This document shows positions 16,443 through 27,137 of a stretch of 27,137 bases of DNA, piece by piece. The position numbers and the translations under genes are program-made. Numbering within the stretch: position 1 is the first letter of the stretch; every line of letters begins with the position of its first letter. The notes under the pieces were generated by a model. The model did no database searches, was not told the DNA's origin, and saw only the letters and a list, made by a program, of their open reading frames with translations. Origin of the DNA: a virus; the IMG/VR virus record IMGVR_UViG_3300045051_001502, positions 1 to 27,137 of that record; one strand, written 5' to 3'.

Positions 16443-17333
16443 TTAGGCAATCTTGGCCTTAACCTTAACAACAGCCTCTTCTTCCATACGAACGGCACCG
16501 ATGAAGGTAGCAGTCTGGATAGCGAAGTTATTGTTGTGGGTCGGCAGGCGATCAATCGTAGTAGACGGCATATCGTTGTAACCAATCTTCACCGCGTCAG
16601 CGTCAGCAAAGATAAAGTCAGCAATGTTAGAGCCATCAACCGGGCACAGATTGGAAACAACCCAAGTGAAGCCATACCAACGTGCGATGGTGCCTTCAAC
16701 CAACGGCTTAACAGCGTTGTAGTCAGCGGAACCAACCTGAGCAATTGCAAGCAACTGGTCCAGGGCTTCGGAGTTCACGATAGCAATACGGTTCTTGGTG
16801 GAAACACCCTTCTTATCCAACAGTACCTTAGCGCGACGAACCTTGGAGAGCGTCAGGCCGGTATCAACGCCGCTATTGTCATAGTTAGCAGCAACAGTCT
16901 GACCAGCAGGCAGAGCAACAGCAGCACCGCCCTTGACAGTAGCGGAACCAAGGAACGCATTGATGATAACTTCATCGCGCTTGATGCCAACGGCTTCAGC
17001 GTGACGCTGAACCAACTGGCCGGTTGGGTCTTCGCCGCCCATCTTGATGATTTCATCATAGGAAAGAAGATCGGCGCGGCCATACTGAGCGAGGTGGATA
17101 CCGCGCTGGTCAATGGAGAGCGCGGAGAACTGCGTTTCAGTACCCTTGGCACCAATGCTATTCAGCGTGGCAGTACCAAGACGCTTGTAATAAAACGTGT
17201 CGGCATTCTGGACAACCTTGTTAGAAATCAGGTTCCAGAGTTGAGACTGTTCCTGAGACTTGAGATACCAGCCCTGGTTAAACGTATCCTTGAAGGCCGG
17301 CGAAAAATCACTAAATCCGGTAATAGTAGACAT
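16443..17333 (-). CDS. Major capsid protein
   Basis: This gene encodes 296 aa with a GAGG ribosome site 7 nt from the ATG. Conserved-looking blocks include LYLKSQEQSQLW-like WYLKSQEQSQLWNLIS near residue 22, GRADLLSYDEIIKMGGEDPTG around 86-106, AVGIKRDEVIINAFLGSA and FIFADADAVKIGYNDMP. These resemble podoviral major capsid proteins of the HK97 fold. It stands alone between the scaffold gene and the tail operon with its own ATAAATA box, a structured ~200-nt leader and a downstream terminator, consistent with the highest expression level of the region. No frameshifted extension is apparent. Confidence 0.9.
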   Translation of the reverse strand: MSTITGFSDFSPAFKDTFNQGWYLKSQEQSQLWNLISNKVVQNADTFYYKRLGTATLNSIGAKGTETQFSALSIDQRGIHLAQYGRADLLSYDEIIKMGGEDPTGQLVQRHAEAVGIKRDEVIINAFLGSATVKGGAAVALPAGQTVAANYDNSGVDTGLTLSKVRRAKVLLDKKGVSTKNRIAIVNSEALDQLLAIAQVGSADYNAVKPLVEGTIARWYGFTWVVSNLCPVDGSNIADFIFADADAVKIGYNDMPSTTIDRLPTHNNNFAIQTATFIGAVRMEEEAVVKVKAKIA

Positions 17334-21135: not shown

Positions 21136-22431
21136 TCAGATTTCCAATGGGTTCCATCCGCTATCTGGCTTGTCATACCTACGCCAATCATACGTTTTGC
21201 CCGCATAAGCGCGCACCTCTTCAACGCCAAGAGCCAGATACCTAAATGCATCCGAACCGTGGCTATATTCATCGTGAACAGGCTTGGGAGATAGAACGCC
21301 GTGCTTATCAATGATCGGGCGGCACTGCTTCAAACAAGAAATGCCACGCTCAGTCTTTTCCTCATTGAAGCGGCAACGATCCAACATAACACGCGCCGCA
21401 TTAATGCCCTCAATGACGCTCATACGAGGAATGACAATATCAAAATCAATCCCGTAGTTACGTGCAATCTCACGTCTGGTTGGCGCACCAAACAAATCAT
21501 TAGAACGCACCTCAATATCGTGAGGCGCAATATGGGAACCAAAGTTGTATGGCTTGGAGTTTACAAGCGAACACCAGTCTGGAATGGAAAGGCCGGAACC
21601 TTCCTCATAATCAATCAGGTGAATTTCATTACCGATGATCTGGAAGAACCAGATAGCGGTTGCATCCGCCATACCCAAATCCCACGCGGTATGAACGGGA
21701 TGAGCCTTGTTCCAGCCGTAAGACCCGATGTGACCGGCGGCGGCAAGGCGGGACAATTCCTTGACGTAAAACGCCCCAGGAATGGCACCCTCAAAGGAAC
21801 ACATAAACTCCTGTTCAAACGCCTCTTCCGTCTGCCCCTCTCGGATTTCGGCAATCTCTTCCTCATTGAAGACACCCGACCGAGTGATGGGAATAACAGC
21901 AGAGAACCACTTGGCTGGGTTGGCATTGGCCTCTTTGAGTTTCAGCCAAAGAAGGTTGTTTCCCTTGCCCTTCGGAGTGCCAACGAAAATCACCCATCCC
22001 TTCTTATCCTGAAGGGCGGGGAAGATAACGAGGGAATACACTTGCTCGGGGATGTCTTGGCACTCATCCAAAACCGCCCCATCCCAACCCTTGCCACGAA
22101 GGGCCTCCGGGTTCTCACACCCGTATAGGGTGATGCGGGCACCGTTGGGGAAGTCGCACCTCAGTTCCGATTCATTGAAGGAAATGCCTTGAAGGCCCTT
22201 CGTGTAGGTCTTGAAGAAATCCCACACGATATCCTTAGCCTGCATACGCTGGGGGGCGATATAGGCAAACCTACCGTTGGGCTTTTGAAGCGCCTTGAGG
22301 ATCAATTCATTAACGCAAAACACAGTCTTGCCAGCACGACGATGAATAACGATTGCGTTCCTTCGCGTCAGACTTTGATGCAATACCCGCTGATAGAGAC
22401 GCGGAGAGTATGGGTGAACCCATTCTGCCAT
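21136..22431 (-). CDS. terL: Terminase large subunit
   Basis: This gene encodes 431 aa. The ATPase part has Walker A RRAGKT at residues 31-36, Walker B with catalytic acid VLDECQD at about 120-126, and the coupling motif FVGTPKG near 149-155. The nuclease part has HTAWDLGMADATAIW (Asp about 251) and the C-terminal SHGSDAFRYLALG, where family members carry the last metal-binding Asp. It docks on the portal and cuts and pumps DNA. The ribosome site AGGTGG is 6 nt from the ATG and is masked in read-through RNA by a hairpin. Unusually, the small-terminase-like gene is 3 kb away beyond an oppositely oriented block. Confidence 0.95.
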   Translation of the reverse strand: MAEWVHPYSPRLYQRVLHQSLTRRNAIVIHRRAGKTVFCVNELILKALQKPNGRFAYIAPQRMQAKDIVWDFFKTYTKGLQGISFNESELRCDFPNGARITLYGCENPEALRGKGWDGAVLDECQDIPEQVYSLVIFPALQDKKGWVIFVGTPKGKGNNLLWLKLKEANANPAKWFSAVIPITRSGVFNEEEIAEIREGQTEEAFEQEFMCSFEGAIPGAFYVKELSRLAAAGHIGSYGWNKAHPVHTAWDLGMADATAIWFFQIIGNEIHLIDYEEGSGLSIPDWCSLVNSKPYNFGSHIAPHDIEVRSNDLFGAPTRREIARNYGIDFDIVIPRMSVIEGINAARVMLDRCRFNEEKTERGISCLKQCRPIIDKHGVLSPKPVHDEYSHGSDAFRYLALGVEEVRAYAGKTYDWRRYDKPDSGWNPLEI

Positions 22432-22468: not shown

Positions 22469-22733
22469 CTTTGCGTCCCGAAAACTCTGCGCCTTGAAAG
22501 GAGGCATTTCAAAAACTTGAAAAATTATGTGTGACCCTTGGGACAAGGAAACGGCGCGGGTATTCATTTTTGGGGTATGGGGTGCAATCAACCCACCCCC
22601 ATACATCATCAATCTTCGTCCCGCCTAACGTCGCCCATCTTCACACTTATCCTCTTCCTGTTCCTCTCATCAATCTTCTCATCAATCATTTTTCCCCTTG
22701 CCTATGCCTATCACCTGTGCCATATGTCCACTC
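22469..22733. promoter_or_regulatory. Divergent intergenic region between terL and the plus-strand block
   Basis: No gene is supported here. The plus strand carries TTGAAA (22494-22499), TTTCAA (22507-22512) and TTGAAA (22517-22522), alternating half-sites that look like a regulator-binding cluster. Further right, GTATGGGG (22575-22582) and CCCCATAC (22597-22604) form a stem extendable by two pairs around one bulge. From about 22605 to 22720 the plus strand is strongly pyrimidine-rich with repeated ATCAATC. I found no convincing sigma70 promoter for the plus-strand genes. Confidence 0.4.
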
Positions 22734-22753
22734 GCAACGTCGCTCAACGTTGC
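22734..22753. promoter_or_regulatory. Inverted repeat with CGCTCA loop ahead of the 58-aa gene
   Basis: GCAACGT (22734-22740) and ACGTTGC (22747-22753) are a perfect 7-bp inverted repeat around CGCTCA. The same six-base loop with a different but still fully paired stem occurs at 26162-26179. It lies 34 nt before the ATG at 22788 and may be an operator or an RNA hairpin. Confidence 0.5.
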
Positions 22754-22787: not shown

Positions 22788-22964
22788 ATGGCTGGTATCA
22801 CTACCACCCGCTTCATTGGCTCAGTTGCCCGTGATTTGGTTCTCATTCAGAACATTGTGACTGGCTACTATGTCACGGTGGCTAATGATAACGAGATGAA
22901 CGAGGTGATTGAGACGAACAAGGTTGCGGAGATTGGTGATAAGATTACTCATTCGTTTGAGTGA
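22788..22964 (+). CDS. 58-aa hypothetical protein
   Basis: This gene encodes 58 aa, from ATG 22788 to TGA 22962-22964. The sequence begins MAGITTTRFIGSVARDLV, continues with a beta-like segment VTGYYVTVAND and ends in charged residues. No domain is recognised. A weak AAAGG lies 10 nt upstream. A 9-bp intercistronic hairpin follows, then the 63-aa gene and a strong terminator, so the two appear to form a small operon on the strand opposite to the virion genes. Coding status rests on the clean arrangement. The gene is too short for certainty. Confidence 0.55.
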   Translation: MAGITTTRFIGSVARDLVLIQNIVTGYYVTVANDNEMNEVIETNKVAEIGDKITHSFE

Positions 22965-22972
22965 CCTTATCA

Positions 22973-22996
22973 GAGAGGGGGAGCAATCCCCCTCTC
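22973..22996 (+). other. Intercistronic hairpin
   Basis: GAGAGGGGG (22973-22981) and CCCCCTCTC (22988-22996) form a perfect 9-bp stem with a 6-nt loop, starting 8 nt after the stop codon of the 58-aa gene. There is no T-run, so it is more likely an mRNA-processing or stability element than a terminator. Confidence 0.6.
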
Positions 22997-23022
22997 AACC
23001 AGCCAAGTGTTTGAATGGTGAT

Positions 23023-23214
23023 ATGATGGAGTTTGTTGCAGACGTTCAAAGCGGAACGGTGCATATGGTTTCCCCATCCGTTGGCAAGGCCATTATGGAC
23101 TTGGACACATACGAGAGCGGGCAGATAGTGGCACTCACGCCATATCACGCTTTGGTGAGGTGGGGGAACGGCAGGAGCAAGGTATATCGGTGGCTACAAC
23201 GCCAACCAGATTGA
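23023..23214 (+). CDS. 63-aa hypothetical protein
   Basis: This gene encodes 63 aa starting at the double ATG 23023/23026. The open frame extends further left but would run into the preceding gene and its hairpin. The sequence MMEFVADVQSGTVHMVSP...YESGQIVALTPYHALVRWGNG looks like a small SH3-like beta barrel, the type found in short phage nucleic-acid or protein-binding modules. This is a structural impression only. No strong ribosome site is visible. A rho-independent terminator follows 5 nt after the stop codon. Confidence 0.5.
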   Translation: MMEFVADVQSGTVHMVSPSVGKAIMDLDTYESGQIVALTPYHALVRWGNGRSKVYRWLQRQPD

Positions 23215-23219
23215 GTGAG

Positions 23220-23242
23220 AGGGGCGGGAAACCGCCCCTTTT
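23220..23242 (+). terminator. Rho-independent terminator
   Basis: AGGGGCGG and CCGCCCCT (23220-23227, 23232-23239) pair around a GAAA tetraloop, followed by TTTT. It begins 6 nt after the stop of the 63-aa gene and closes the first plus-strand operon. Confidence 0.88.
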
Positions 23243-23285
23243 CACGTCTGAAGATGATAAGATGATTTGGGATTGAAATTGGGTG

Positions 23286-23315
23286 TTGACACGGTTTGGA
23301 GAGAGGGTTTAGAAA
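23286..23315 (+). promoter_or_regulatory. Sigma70-type promoter for the 142-aa gene
   Basis: A consensus -35 box TTGACA (23286-23291) is followed after 18 nt by TAGAAA (23310-23315, four of six consensus bases). It comes after the preceding terminator and about 105 nt before the ATG at 23420. It implies host-polymerase transcription of this gene, independent of the ATAAATA class. Confidence 0.5.
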
Positions 23316-23325
23316 CTGAGTATGG

Positions 23326-23404
23326 TTGGTGGGTTGCTCACCTACCAATCGGGTTTCCGAGGAAGCCCACGCTCTTTGAAAGGCAATCGTGCCTGCATCG
23401 TGCA
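23326..23404 (+). promoter_or_regulatory. Structured leader with consecutive hairpins before the 142-aa gene
   Basis: Three hairpins follow each other. TTGGTGGG/CCTACCAA (23326-23348) has one G-U pair. GGGTTTC/GAAGCCC (23351-23368) has a CGAG tetraloop and one G-U pair. AGGCA/TGCCT (23381-23394) has an ATCG loop, with a mutually exclusive TGCA/TGCA pairing up to 23404. The GGAGG ribosome site (23409-23413) comes next. It could be a regulatory leader. No known riboswitch family is recognised. Confidence 0.45.
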
Positions 23405-23419
23405 TAGTGGAGGTTTACA

Positions 23420-23848
23420 ATGGCTAAGGCTGCTACTGGTTCGCTGCTGTCGCTTCTGAACATCGTTGATGAGAAGAAGCCCGCTCCCCAGCAGATGGGG
23501 AAGGACCCGGTGAAGAACTACATTGCTGGTCTTGAGGAACAGATTGGTTTCGTGAAGCGTGAGATTGCGGGTGAACCGCTCCCGCTCACGAAGTCGGGTA
23601 AGAAGCCTCGTCTGGTCTATTGGAAGAAGGGTTTGGAGTTCTTCGTTTCCGTCCAGTACGGTTCGGTTCCGATGGACTTGGGCGGTGGTTCCACCATCAA
23701 GGCCGGTAAGACCCTGGCTGAAGTTGAGAAGGTGTTGAACACCCTCAAGGAAGCCGCTCAGAAGGGTGAACTGGACGAACCCATTCACGCAGCCGCCGCC
23801 GCGATTTCCAAGCGGCTGGCGGGCAAGGGTGGGCGCCGTCGGGCCTAA
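23420..23848 (+). CDS. Basic 142-aa protein of unknown function
   Basis: This gene encodes 142 aa with an excellent ribosome site (GGAGG, 6 nt). It is Lys/Arg-rich at the start and end (C-terminus SKRLAGKGGRRRA), with a central beta-like region RLVYWKKGLEFFVSVQYGSVPMD and a helical C-terminal third (AEVEKVLNTLKEAAQKGEL). Its charge and size suggest a nucleic-acid-binding protein. The family is not recognised. It is monocistronic: its own sigma70-like promoter, structured leader and one of the strongest terminators of the window frame it. It therefore may be expressed early or continuously. Confidence 0.8.
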   Translation: MAKAATGSLLSLLNIVDEKKPAPQQMGKDPVKNYIAGLEEQIGFVKREIAGEPLPLTKSGKKPRLVYWKKGLEFFVSVQYGSVPMDLGGGSTIKAGKTLAEVEKVLNTLKEAAQKGELDEPIHAAAAAISKRLAGKGGRRRA

Positions 23849-23866
23849 CCCACACCACGTCAAACA

Positions 23867-23899
23867 GGGGCACCCCTCACCGGGTGCCCCTTTTCTTTT
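23867..23899 (+). terminator. Strong rho-independent terminator
   Basis: GGGGCACCC (23867-23875) and GGGTGCCCC (23882-23890) form a perfect 9-bp GC-rich stem with a 6-nt loop. TTTTCTTTT follows. It isolates the 142-aa gene from the recombinase. Confidence 0.92.
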
Positions 23900-23924
23900 G
23901 CCCTCTTGCCCCTTCCCCATCGCC

Positions 23925-23961
23925 CTTGTAAACTTGCAACGCTGGTCCACAGATTTACAAG
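23925..23961. repeat. Inverted repeat upstream of the serine recombinase (candidate recombinase site)
   Basis: CTTGTAAA (23925-23932) and TTTACAAG (23954-23961) are perfect inverted copies separated by 21 nt. A further partial copy, CTTGCAA (23933-23939), follows the left arm. The right arm touches the GGGGGCGG ribosome region of the recombinase gene. Small serine recombinases bind inverted half-sites next to their own gene and often repress themselves there. Confidence 0.55.
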
Positions 23962-23970
23962 GGGGCGGAA

Positions 23971-24621
23971 ATGCGCCGCTTCGTCGCCTACTACCGCGTA
24001 TCCACCACCAAACAGGGTCAATCCGGCCTTGGCTTGGAAGCCCAACAATCAGCCGTTGCCGCATACCTGAATGGTGGGCGGTGGGAGTTGGTTGGTGAGT
24101 TTGTGGAGATTGAGAGCGGTAAGAAGAATGACCGCCCACAATTGGCTCAGGCGTTGAAGGTAGCCAAGGCCAACAAGGCAACGTTGGTGATTGCCAAACT
24201 GGATAGGCTGGCCCGTAACGTCCACTTCATATCCGGGTTGATGGAAAGCGATGTTGATTTCGTGGCGTGTGATATGCCCGATGCCAACAGGCTCACCATT
24301 CACATCCTTGCTGCTGTTGCCGAACACGAACGAGAAATGATTAGCCAACGCACCAAAGCCGCTCTTGCAGCCGCTAAGGCGCGAGGAACGAAGTTGGGCG
24401 GCAGTGACAAAGGCAGGGACATTGGCAAGGCCCGTGAGAAGATGGTTGAGAAGGCGGATGCCTTCGCGGCTTCCCTCTCCCCCGTGTTGAGGGAGATACA
24501 GGAAGCAGGCATCACCTCCCTATCGGGGATCGCCAGGGCCCTCACCGCCCGAGGCGTCCAGACGGCGCGCGGTGGGTCTTGGACGGCTAAGGCTGTTTCC
24601 AACCTCCTGGAACGGCTGTAG
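23971..24621 (+). CDS. Serine recombinase / resolvase-invertase family
   Basis: This gene encodes 216 aa. The catalytic domain shows YYRVST with the nucleophile Ser11 and Arg9, the conserved KLDRLARN at residues 76-83, and a long dimerisation helix HEREMISQRTKAALAAAK (about 119-136). Residues about 178-214 (GITSLSGIARALTARGV and following) form a helix-turn-helix of the resolvase type. The size fits small resolvases and invertases rather than large phage integrases, so inversion or resolution is more likely than prophage integration. It is oriented against the virion genes and has an inverted repeat immediately upstream. No partner crossover site was identified. Confidence 0.92.
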   Translation: MRRFVAYYRVSTTKQGQSGLGLEAQQSAVAAYLNGGRWELVGEFVEIESGKKNDRPQLAQALKVAKANKATLVIAKLDRLARNVHFISGLMESDVDFVACDMPDANRLTIHILAAVAEHEREMISQRTKAALAAAKARGTKLGGSDKGRDIGKAREKMVEKADAFAASLSPVLREIQEAGITSLSGIARALTARGVQTARGGSWTAKAVSNLLERL

Positions 24622-25373: not shown

Positions 25374-25955
25374 TTACATTCCTTCTTCTCTATCGGCAGA
25401 CTGAACGTTATCAACCTCAATGCAATCCGCATCAATAATCCCAAGCCTACGCTTCTCTTCCAAAAACTCTTCCGGTGGCATCAACCCAAACTGGTGAACA
25501 ACGGTTAGCGTGTTGTCGCTGGTGTTGTGGTTCTCGTTGATCTTCTCTCTTGGGGAGGATGCATCAATCAGGTTCCAAAGCAACTTCGCTTTAGTCTCAT
25601 CCTGTTTGTTGATATATTCCTTCTTAACAATCTTCACATATTGCAGCAATGGATTGAAACCCATTTCCTCCAACTTCTCACGCAACAATACCGCCTTGTT
25701 GCGGGTGCCCTTCGGCTTGCCAGCCGGGTTAAGGGATGGAGCCCCCTTCACCATATTGGGATTGCCACGCTTCTTCTTAGGCTTTGGCTCATCATCATCC
25801 ATCGGCAGACTGTCATTCTTCTCTATCGGCAGACTATCAATCGGCTGATTTTCAAAAATGTTGAAAGGCGCGTTGGGTTCTCCCAACAATACACCCCTCT
25901 CGTTCGCCAAAGCACCATCTACATCAACGGATTTCTCACACTTTTTCACACTCAT
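25374..25955 (-). CDS. DUF5681-like protein, putative small terminase subunit
   Basis: This gene encodes 193 aa, with GGGGAG 5 nt from the ATG. The central block NMVKGAPSLNPAGKPKGTRNK is characteristic of DUF5681-type phage proteins encoded beside terminases. A helical region LREKLEEMGFNPLLQYVKIV follows, then LLWNLIDASSPREK, as in small terminase subunits of this kind. Residues about 38-60 hold a short repeat (DSLPIEKN, DSLPMDDD), and the C-terminus is acidic. It would recognise the packaging start on phage DNA. Oddly, the large subunit is 3 kb downstream behind an inverted gene block. The call rests on motif resemblance. Confidence 0.65.
   Translation of the reverse strand: MSVKKCEKSVDVDGALANERGVLLGEPNAPFNIFENQPIDSLPIEKNDSLPMDDDEPKPKKKRGNPNMVKGAPSLNPAGKPKGTRNKAVLLREKLEEMGFNPLLQYVKIVKKEYINKQDETKAKLLWNLIDASSPREKINENHNTSDNTLTVVHQFGLMPPEEFLEEKRRLGIIDADCIEVDNVQSADREEGM
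25383..25835. repeat. 20-bp exact direct repeat inside the small-terminase-like gene
   Basis: AGTCTGCCGATAGAGAAGAA (minus strand) occurs at 25816-25835 and again at 25383-25402, with an 11-bp partial copy at 25801-25811. The first copy is read as SLPIEK and the second in another frame as SADREE, so the identity is at DNA rather than protein level. Confidence 0.85.
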
Positions 25956-25963
25956 ATGCGCTC

Positions 25964-26030
25964 CCCTATAGGGAAATGCCTGTTCGTAATGGCATTTTTC
26001 CCCAATAAATCATTGGCTACGCATATTTAT
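25964..26030 (-). promoter_or_regulatory. Leader of the small-terminase-like gene with ATAAATA box
   Basis: The minus strand reads TTCAATAAATATGCG at the box (26024-26030). CAATAAAT (26025-26032) can pair with ATTTATTG (26003-26010), so this copy too lies in a hairpin arm. Further down are an AATGCC/GGCATT hairpin (25975-25996) and the 10-bp palindrome CCCTATAGGG (25964-25973) just ahead of the ribosome site. Confidence 0.45.
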
Positions 26031-26060
26031 TGAATAGGGTTGGAAATGGCGTGCTGTTGC

Positions 26061-26098
26061 AAAAGGAAAGCCCCCTTGCCTGGAGGGAGCAAGGGGGC
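26061..26098 (-). terminator. Rho-independent terminator between the 298-aa gene and the small-terminase-like gene
   Basis: GCCCCCTTGC (26070-26079) and GCAAGGGGGC (26089-26098) form a perfect 10-bp stem with a 9-nt loop, followed on the minus strand by TTTCCTTTTG. It ends the 298-aa gene's transcript and the candidate small RNA. The opposite strand has CAGTTTTA after the stem, so weak plus-strand activity is possible. Confidence 0.85.
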
Positions 26099-26179
26099 CA
26101 GTTTTACCGCTATGTTTGGAACGGATGTTCCACTTTAAGGAGGAGTATATAAGATTAACCAGTAAGTCGCTCAACTTAC
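26061..26179 (-). ncRNA. Candidate ~119-nt small RNA with anti-Shine-Dalgarno-like segment
   Basis: A TATAAATA box (26185-26192) predicts a start near 26179. There a hairpin begins at once: GTAAGT/ACTTAC (26174-26179 with 26162-26167). Then comes an unpaired AT-rich stretch containing CTCCTCCTTA (26136-26145), which includes CCTCCTTA, the 3' end of 16S rRNA. A GGAAC/GTTCC hairpin (26118-26131) with a four-base loop follows, and then the 10-bp terminator. No start codon and ribosome site combination exists in the interval on this strand. The open frame through the terminator looks spurious. Confidence 0.5.
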
Positions 26180-26184
26180 GAATA

Positions 26185-26192
26185 TATTTATA
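26185..26192 (-). promoter_or_regulatory. TATAAATA box heading the candidate small RNA
   Basis: The minus strand reads GTGTATAAATATATT in the gap after the 298-aa gene. It is an exact match to the T4 late core and has no protein gene before the next terminator. Confidence 0.5.
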
Positions 26193-26240
26193 CACCATCG
26201 CTCATTTGGTTGTCAAAATACCGCTCAACATTATTCCTCA

Positions 26241-27137
26241 TTACCAATCATCTTCACTCATACGCGGGCCGTTGTTATGCTGCGTCTTCCCTGACCCATC
26301 AAACCAATATGCCTTCCAATAGAACTGCTTGGCGTGGAAATCTCCCTTGCGGAATGGCAAGCGCCAATAATCATCACCAAGCCACATAAACACTTCACCC
26401 TCATTCATAAAGTTTGGTTCTTTGAGGGATGGATTGCCGTAGAACCTAAACCCACAGAACCCCCACATTGCCCTTGGGTTCTTTGGTCGGCCTCCGGTCA
26501 CTGGTTGAAGCAATCCATATGCCTGCCATTCTTTCGCATCCAACGTATCAAGGATGCGCTCACCCCAACGTTTCAAGTCCGCTTTCTCTTCCTGGGTCAA
26601 TGAACGCTTGGCGTAATCGGCCATCACCTCATCCAAGTAACCAAGGAACTTAGGGTTCTCGCTCTTGTTGGTTGCCGTCTTGGCGCTCATTCGGTGTTGC
26701 CACTCACTTCCTTGTGTTCCGTCCTTCCAGTTGATTTGCGCCTTCATAATCCACATCCGGTCACGGTTGTTCCTCACACTCGGCGGGTTATGAACCAGTT
26801 GGAGGGATAGTTCCTTGACCGGCTGGTTGATGATCGGGTTCGGGCTGGGTTGCGGGGTTGGCGGGGTTGCATTCCGCCAGTCATATTCAAAAAAACCCGT
26901 ATGGATGGGAGCCGAATGGACAACATCCGTATGGATGGCATCTGGGATAGATTCCTCATTGGATGAACCCGGATGGGGGAAGTCCGTATGGACCAAACCC
27001 GAATGGATTTCTTCAGACGAAGGAGAAAAAAAGTCTAATCTCTTAATCTTCTTAATCTCCTTAATCTCCTTAATCATTAGGCTTTCATCATTTGAAGAAA
27101 TAATAGGTTCATATGAACCCGCGTTATAAATATCCAT
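26241..27137 (-). CDS. Unrecognised 298-aa protein with iteron-bearing N-terminal region
   Basis: This gene encodes 298 aa from an ATG at the window edge. The true start could lie outside. Residues about 22-34 are an IKE/IKK repeat. Residues about 43-83 hold histidine-containing five-residue repeats (IHSGL, VHTDF, PHPGS and later IHTDV, VHSAP, IHTGF). Residues 90-120 are Pro-rich. Residues 125-298 look like a folded domain rich in Trp and Phe (MWIMKAQINWKDG, MWGFCGFRFYGNPSL, YWRLPFRKGDFHAKQFYWKAYW). No family is recognised. The repeated DNA and the gene's lone position suggest a replication protein carrying its own origin, as in lambda O, but this is inference. A terminator lies about 140 nt downstream. 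Confidence 0.7.
   Translation of the reverse strand: MDIYNAGSYEPIISSNDESLMIKEIKEIKKIKRLDFFSPSSEEIHSGLVHTDFPHPGSSNEESIPDAIHTDVVHSAPIHTGFFEYDWRNATPPTPQPSPNPIINQPVKELSLQLVHNPPSVRNNRDRMWIMKAQINWKDGTQGSEWQHRMSAKTATNKSENPKFLGYLDEVMADYAKRSLTQEEKADLKRWGERILDTLDAKEWQAYGLLQPVTGGRPKNPRAMWGFCGFRFYGNPSLKEPNFMNEGEVFMWLGDDYWRLPFRKGDFHAKQFYWKAYWFDGSGKTQHNNGPRMSEDDW
26896..27007. repeat. Two triplets of 15-bp-spaced iterons
   Basis: The 10-mers CCCGTATGGA (26896), GCCGAATGGA (26911), TCCGTATGGA (26926), CCCGGATGGG (26968), TCCGTATGGA (26983) and CCCGAATGGA (26998) are spaced exactly 15 bp within each triplet. A degraded copy (CCTCATTGGA) may lie at 26953. Being 15 bp apart, they also encode five-residue protein repeats, so either DNA binding or protein structure could be the selected property. 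Confidence 0.85.
27033..27077. repeat. Five tandem 9-bp AT-rich repeats
   Basis: Units beginning at 27033, 27042, 27051, 27060 and 27069 follow CTTAATCTC with few changes (the first is GTCTAATCT). They lie 25 bp from the last iteron and encode the IKE/IKK run. Position and AT-richness fit a DNA-unwinding element, though a purely protein-level repeat is possible. Confidence 0.85.
27106..27132. promoter_or_regulatory. 14-bp palindrome and plus-strand TATAAATA at the right edge
   Basis: GGTTCATATGAACC (27106-27119) is a perfect palindrome. Five bases later the plus strand reads TATAAATA (27125-27132), the only copy of the 7-mer on that strand. It would direct transcription out of the window to the right. 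The same bases form the first codons of the minus-strand gene, so the match may be coincidental. Confidence 0.4.

Follow-up and report, generated by a model that had tools for sequence, protein, structure and literature searches.

The window analyzed here is the whole 27,137-base virus record, in which the late module of a podovirus is encoded on the minus strand, including the terminase large subunit gene (terL), a capsid gene and further structural genes. The best matches of terL among cultured phages were pelagiphages, with 40-43% identity. A second contig, 99.9% identical to the window, ends before the intergenic gap described below and reaches past the left end of the window to a tyrosine integrase gene, which is located just beyond that end (L005, 7240-8388) on the strand opposite to the structural genes. 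The presence of this integrase beside the structural genes suggests that the phage is temperate. A cassette on the plus strand (22788-24621), opposite in orientation to every late gene, is located between a methyltransferase gene and terL; it encodes a serine recombinase (23971-24621), and a small gene that it also carries (23420-23848) is equipped with a terminator of its own. The gene preceding the methyltransferase and terL is, by this position, probably the small terminase (TerS); its DUF5681-like match is sub-threshold, and it is not of the same family as the Sf6-type TerS of the relatives. Between this gene and the next one upstream lies a gap of 285 bases, in which the RNA element examined here is found (Table 1).

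Within this gap, all the elements that the first-pass annotation had read as a compact RNA gene of about 119 nt were recovered on the minus strand, where the late genes are also encoded: a hairpin at the predicted 5' end, an unpaired stretch carrying the anti-Shine-Dalgarno sequence of the 16S rRNA 3' end (CCTCCTTA), a second hairpin and a strong intrinsic terminator. The -10 box TATAAATA named in that annotation is present as well, whereas its -35 element TTGACA had been overlooked; together they form a sigma70-type promoter (TTGACA-18-TATAAA) with 11 of 12 matches, and no other pair in the window scores as high. The start inferred from the -10 box, at about 26180, and the end given by the terminator predict an RNA of about 118 nt. 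In shuffles, 0.58 promoter pairs of this strength are expected per window, and for the RNA-bearing gap the corresponding probability was P=0.01. No other strong intrinsic terminator with a T tail occurs on the minus strand of the window, and both promoter and terminator exceed chance. The whole predicted RNA folds beyond shuffles (z=-3.6); the RNA body taken without the terminator does not fold beyond chance (z=-1.1). A discrete short RNA gene is the likely reading of these positions.

Table 1. Coordinates of the genes and sequence features discussed in the text (positions of the window)
Feature	Position	Strand	Remarks
Capsid gene	16443-17333	-	Minus-strand late module
terL (terminase large subunit)	21136-22431	-	Late operon
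Hairpin upstream of terL	22734-22753	-	Same TGAGCG loop as the 5' hairpin, different stem
First gene past the terminator, probable small terminase	25374-25955	-	Weak DUF5681-like match
Ribosome site of the gene after the terminator	25961-25966	-	GGGGAG
Intrinsic terminator	26059-26099	-	12-bp stem 26069-26099; tail TTCCTTTT
Predicted short transcript	26061-26180	-	About 118 nt; start from -10 box, end from terminator
Second hairpin of the RNA	26117-26132	-	TGGAAC-ATCC-GTTCCA
Anti-Shine-Dalgarno sequence	26136-26143	-	CCTCCTTA
5' hairpin	26162-26179	-	GTAAGT-TGAGCG-ACTTAC
-10 region	26185-26192	-	TATAAATA (TATAAA scored); 18-nt spacer to -35
-35 element	26211-26216	-	TTGACA
Upstream gene	26241-27137	-	Without family match

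The region had also been described as free of open reading frames. This holds as far as coding character is concerned; a 62-codon frame on the minus strand (26010-26198) does span the entire element, including the terminator. Its codon usage (-0.36) is that of noncoding sequence when compared with the true frames (0.34 +/- 0.16) and the wrong frames (-0.40 +/- 0.23) and its product has no family match, and a coding explanation was dismissed on the grounds of codon usage. A reading of the reverse strand with TAAGGAGG as ribosome site was likewise discarded, as no usual start codon is suitably placed. No Rfam family matched the window RNA at the gathering score, and neither the intergenic region nor the genes on either side of it gave relatives in other records, in exact or in distant searches.

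A terL profile search retrieved 80 viral and 32 genome loci with up to 46% identity; the closest relatives found have terL about 45% identical, and many of the nearest carry the Sf6-type TerS. The comparison covered the regions upstream of TerS in 91 distinct versions, among them those of 80 loci retrieved with a TerS search. A sense-strand terminator was located within -130 to +30 of the TerS start in 59 of them, which are not independent (many are close relatives, falling into about 15 clusters), and an antisense terminator in none of the 91. These terminators end 4-64 nt before TerS, with one exception overlapping the annotated start; such proximity hardly allows for a further promoter and means that late transcripts must usually come through the terminator. 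In most relatives, the RNA preceding the terminator consists of one hairpin with a large loop. In one subgroup, for which 14 distinct sequences were compared, seven pairs of the stem were changed on both sides, a level of covariation matched by none of 500 shuffles, and the covariance model of this subgroup recognized six more RNAs at E < 1e-6 (L012, L015, L149, L184, L192 and L194) and other RNAs more weakly. Covariation-supported RNAs of this hairpin-plus-terminator type, lying directly before TerS, were observed in the podovirus contigs L013, L010, L131, L196 and others, and the relatives' hairpin RNA belongs to no Rfam family.

The base of the terminator carries AACT in 16 of 19 relatives' RNAs compared with five of 55 other terminators, one of these five being itself located upstream of TerS; in the window, AAAACT precedes the terminator in the same manner. 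Among the 70 relatives with a GC content of at least 40%, only three had, upstream of terL, a terminator as well as a promoter scoring 10/12 or better. The upstream regions of the cultured pelagiphages do not have such a layout. The noncoding stretch of up to about 500 nt that precedes the terminase genes of these phages (L120-L123 and L004) contains C-rich blocks as well as a motif resembling TATATATATACATGG, and could be a packaging site or an origin. A covariance-model search had been proposed along with the first-pass annotation; the relatives' model failed to recognize the window RNA, with a nonsignificant score of 5.9 bits (E 0.14 in 401 bases). Given this result and the different family of the TerS candidate in the window, the layout shared by the window and its relatives may be an analogy.

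Promoter, terminator, noncoding character, position and strand, together with the recurrence of the layout in relatives, can all be read from the sequence. The interpretation that we prefer, and to which we would give an even chance, is that the RNA is the promoter-proximal, terminated leader of the late operon (terminase and structural genes) and that it gates late transcription. This reading is drawn from the 113 nt that follow the terminator up to the next gene, where the best promoter reached 7/12 and none was stronger, and from the relatives, in which late transcripts must usually cross the terminator. All late genes of the window follow the terminator on its strand, and they must be kept off if the phage is, as is probable, temperate. 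According to the proposed mechanism, host RNA polymerase would start at TTGACA/TATAAA and make an RNA of about 118 nt, and in the default state, lysogenic or early, transcription would halt at the intrinsic terminator. The late genes would then be reached on read-through only, probably by means of phage antitermination. Once terminated, the RNA may pile up as a by-product, or it may have a secondary function as an sRNA. That the RNA is transcribed, that antitermination operates and that the RNA has any activity is here what we infer from the layout. No antiterminator gene was identifiable in the incomplete genome, the upstream gene being without a family match.

A dedicated trans-acting sRNA, in which CCUCCUUA would pair with ribosome sites on mRNAs of the host or the phage in the manner of the AbcR or cuckoo RNAs, appears unlikely to us. 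Its size of about 118 nt and the CU-rich stretch between stem-loops correspond to the description of AbcR1/2 (PMC7143759). The exact 8-mer CCTCCTTA, of which the window has one copy only, is mostly unpaired in the predicted fold, as had been claimed (unpaired probability 0.39-0.91), and it arises in the dinucleotide-shuffled RNA body with P=0.003, a value to be read with the motif having been picked after the fact; the pyrimidine stretch as such was not above shuffles. CCTCC was found in the corresponding RNA of the relatives L012, L023 and L038, but its frequency among the relatives' RNAs (four of 17 against 1.5 expected, P=0.07) was not significantly enriched, and no anti-Shine-Dalgarno motif recurs among these relatives beyond chance. 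Interaction prediction, another of the checks proposed at the outset, also argued against this explanation, the best pairing with phage start regions (-15.5 kcal/mol) being no better than the mean best of shuffled seeds (-16.2 kcal/mol). No second complementary site over 17 nt with at most three mismatches was found in the window, and in four phage records the relatives' loop matched essentially its own site alone. The lack of an Rfam match points in the same direction.

The phage start site that pairs best with the CU segment is the GGGGAG of the gene following the terminator (P=0.067). A pairing in cis of CUCC with this terS ribosome site, also at P=0.067, was promising in one fold, but dropped to 0.3 or was lost altogether when the transcript ends were changed, and was rejected. 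Thus, of the earlier interpretation, in which a late-operon leader had not been considered, the discrete short RNA gene is retained on sequence grounds, whereas the regulation of translation through the anti-Shine-Dalgarno segment gained no support from the phage pairing, second-site or relatives' CCTCC tests. A dedicated regulator of this kind, tested against phage sites, is possible but unsupported, and the RNA does resemble the anti-Shine-Dalgarno tail of the ribosome, though this may be due to chance.

Rather unlikely, in our assessment, is that the locus represents a plain boundary, at which the terminator ends transcription of the upstream gene while the promoter-like sequence and CCTCCTTA are incidental. 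Terminators commonly end operons, the upstream gene is encoded on the same strand, and promoter-like matches of at least 10/12 do occur by chance, with six seen in the window against 8.6 expected. However, the promoter in question reaches 11/12, is suitably spaced from the terminator and is improbable for the gap alone, and the order of promoter, hairpin and terminator recurs before TerS in relatives.

We regard as improbable that the element acts in cis, with the UGAGCG hairpin binding a phage protein for read-through, as in sites of the nut or put type, and with the CU segment serving as no seed. The 5' hairpin and the one upstream of terL, both on the minus strand, have in common the TGAGCG loop and two closing pairs, their stems being different. 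None of 4000 shuffles of the noncoding regions gave two hairpins with a common loop of at least 6, although this overstates the surprise of the loop sharing, since the shuffles hold fewer hairpins (mean 1.5 vs 10). Out of 39 copies of TGAGCG, only three have strong arms, and all three are intergenic. Against this explanation, the clear hairpin copies amount to two in one genome, a search for the 18-nt hairpin elsewhere gave a single match inside a tail gene, which was read as chance, no boxA was recognized by eye, and the UGAGCG loop is not common to the relatives' RNAs. A protein-binding role of the UGAGCG hairpin in read-through may nevertheless hold, and would be compatible with the leader explanation. 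Around these sites, we also observed a weaker TGAGCG-loop hairpin at 26217-26232, a further TGAGCG inside the promoter spacer (26199-26204), and, upstream of terL on the minus strand, a hairpin at 22494-22512 with CCTCC in its loop.

A combined reading, which we find improbable taken as a whole, is that podoviruses with an HTVC010P-like terL share an undescribed class of short hairpin-plus-terminator RNAs directly before TerS, and that the window has a divergent form of it. This RNA, set free while the late genes are kept from being transcribed, would in addition prevent host or early mRNAs from being translated, through mimicry of the 16S anti-Shine-Dalgarno tail.

Among known systems, the proposed late-operon leader recalls the pR'-tR' region of phage lambda, the source of 6S RNA, in which a promoter, a short untranslated RNA and an intrinsic terminator are likewise followed by late genes on the same strand; the window phage is probably temperate too. 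In contrast to lambda, no Q-like gene or qut site was identified in the window, the RNA measures about 118 nt rather than the 194 nt of 6S RNA, and it lies directly before a probable small-terminase gene and not before lysis genes. The TerS-upstream RNA of the relatives (model R1) agrees with that of the window in position, sense, size class and the presence of AACT and a terminator. It differs in folding into a single long hairpin whose apical loop carries the CU-rich sequence, where the window RNA forms two short hairpins, in giving no significant match to the window, and in preceding another type of TerS.

AbcR1 and AbcR2 have a similar length, stem-loops and an unpaired CU-rich anti-Shine-Dalgarno motif (PMC7143759), and the window RNA, with its exposed motif of this kind, resembles these AbcR/cuckoo RNAs of Alphaproteobacteria; however, the AbcR RNAs are chromosomal, bind Hfq and have two anti-Shine-Dalgarno stretches, whereas the window RNA is located in a phage, matches no Rfam family and has one such stretch. 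In Stx phages, the region bounded by pR' and tR' yields the sRNA StxS, which binds a ribosome site (PMC7873438). The window RNA, as predicted, would similarly be a terminated late-promoter transcript that could act on a ribosome site, although in its case Hfq binding, processing, stability and targets are hypothetical. Since StxS is a working sRNA, a secondary regulatory role for the terminated RNA of the window is plausible by analogy. The leader reading would extend the lambda scheme of a late promoter, a terminated leader and a possible sRNA to podoviruses that are far from lambda and common in metagenomes, and should the leader act on ribosome sites as well, StxS would have a parallel outside the enterobacteria.
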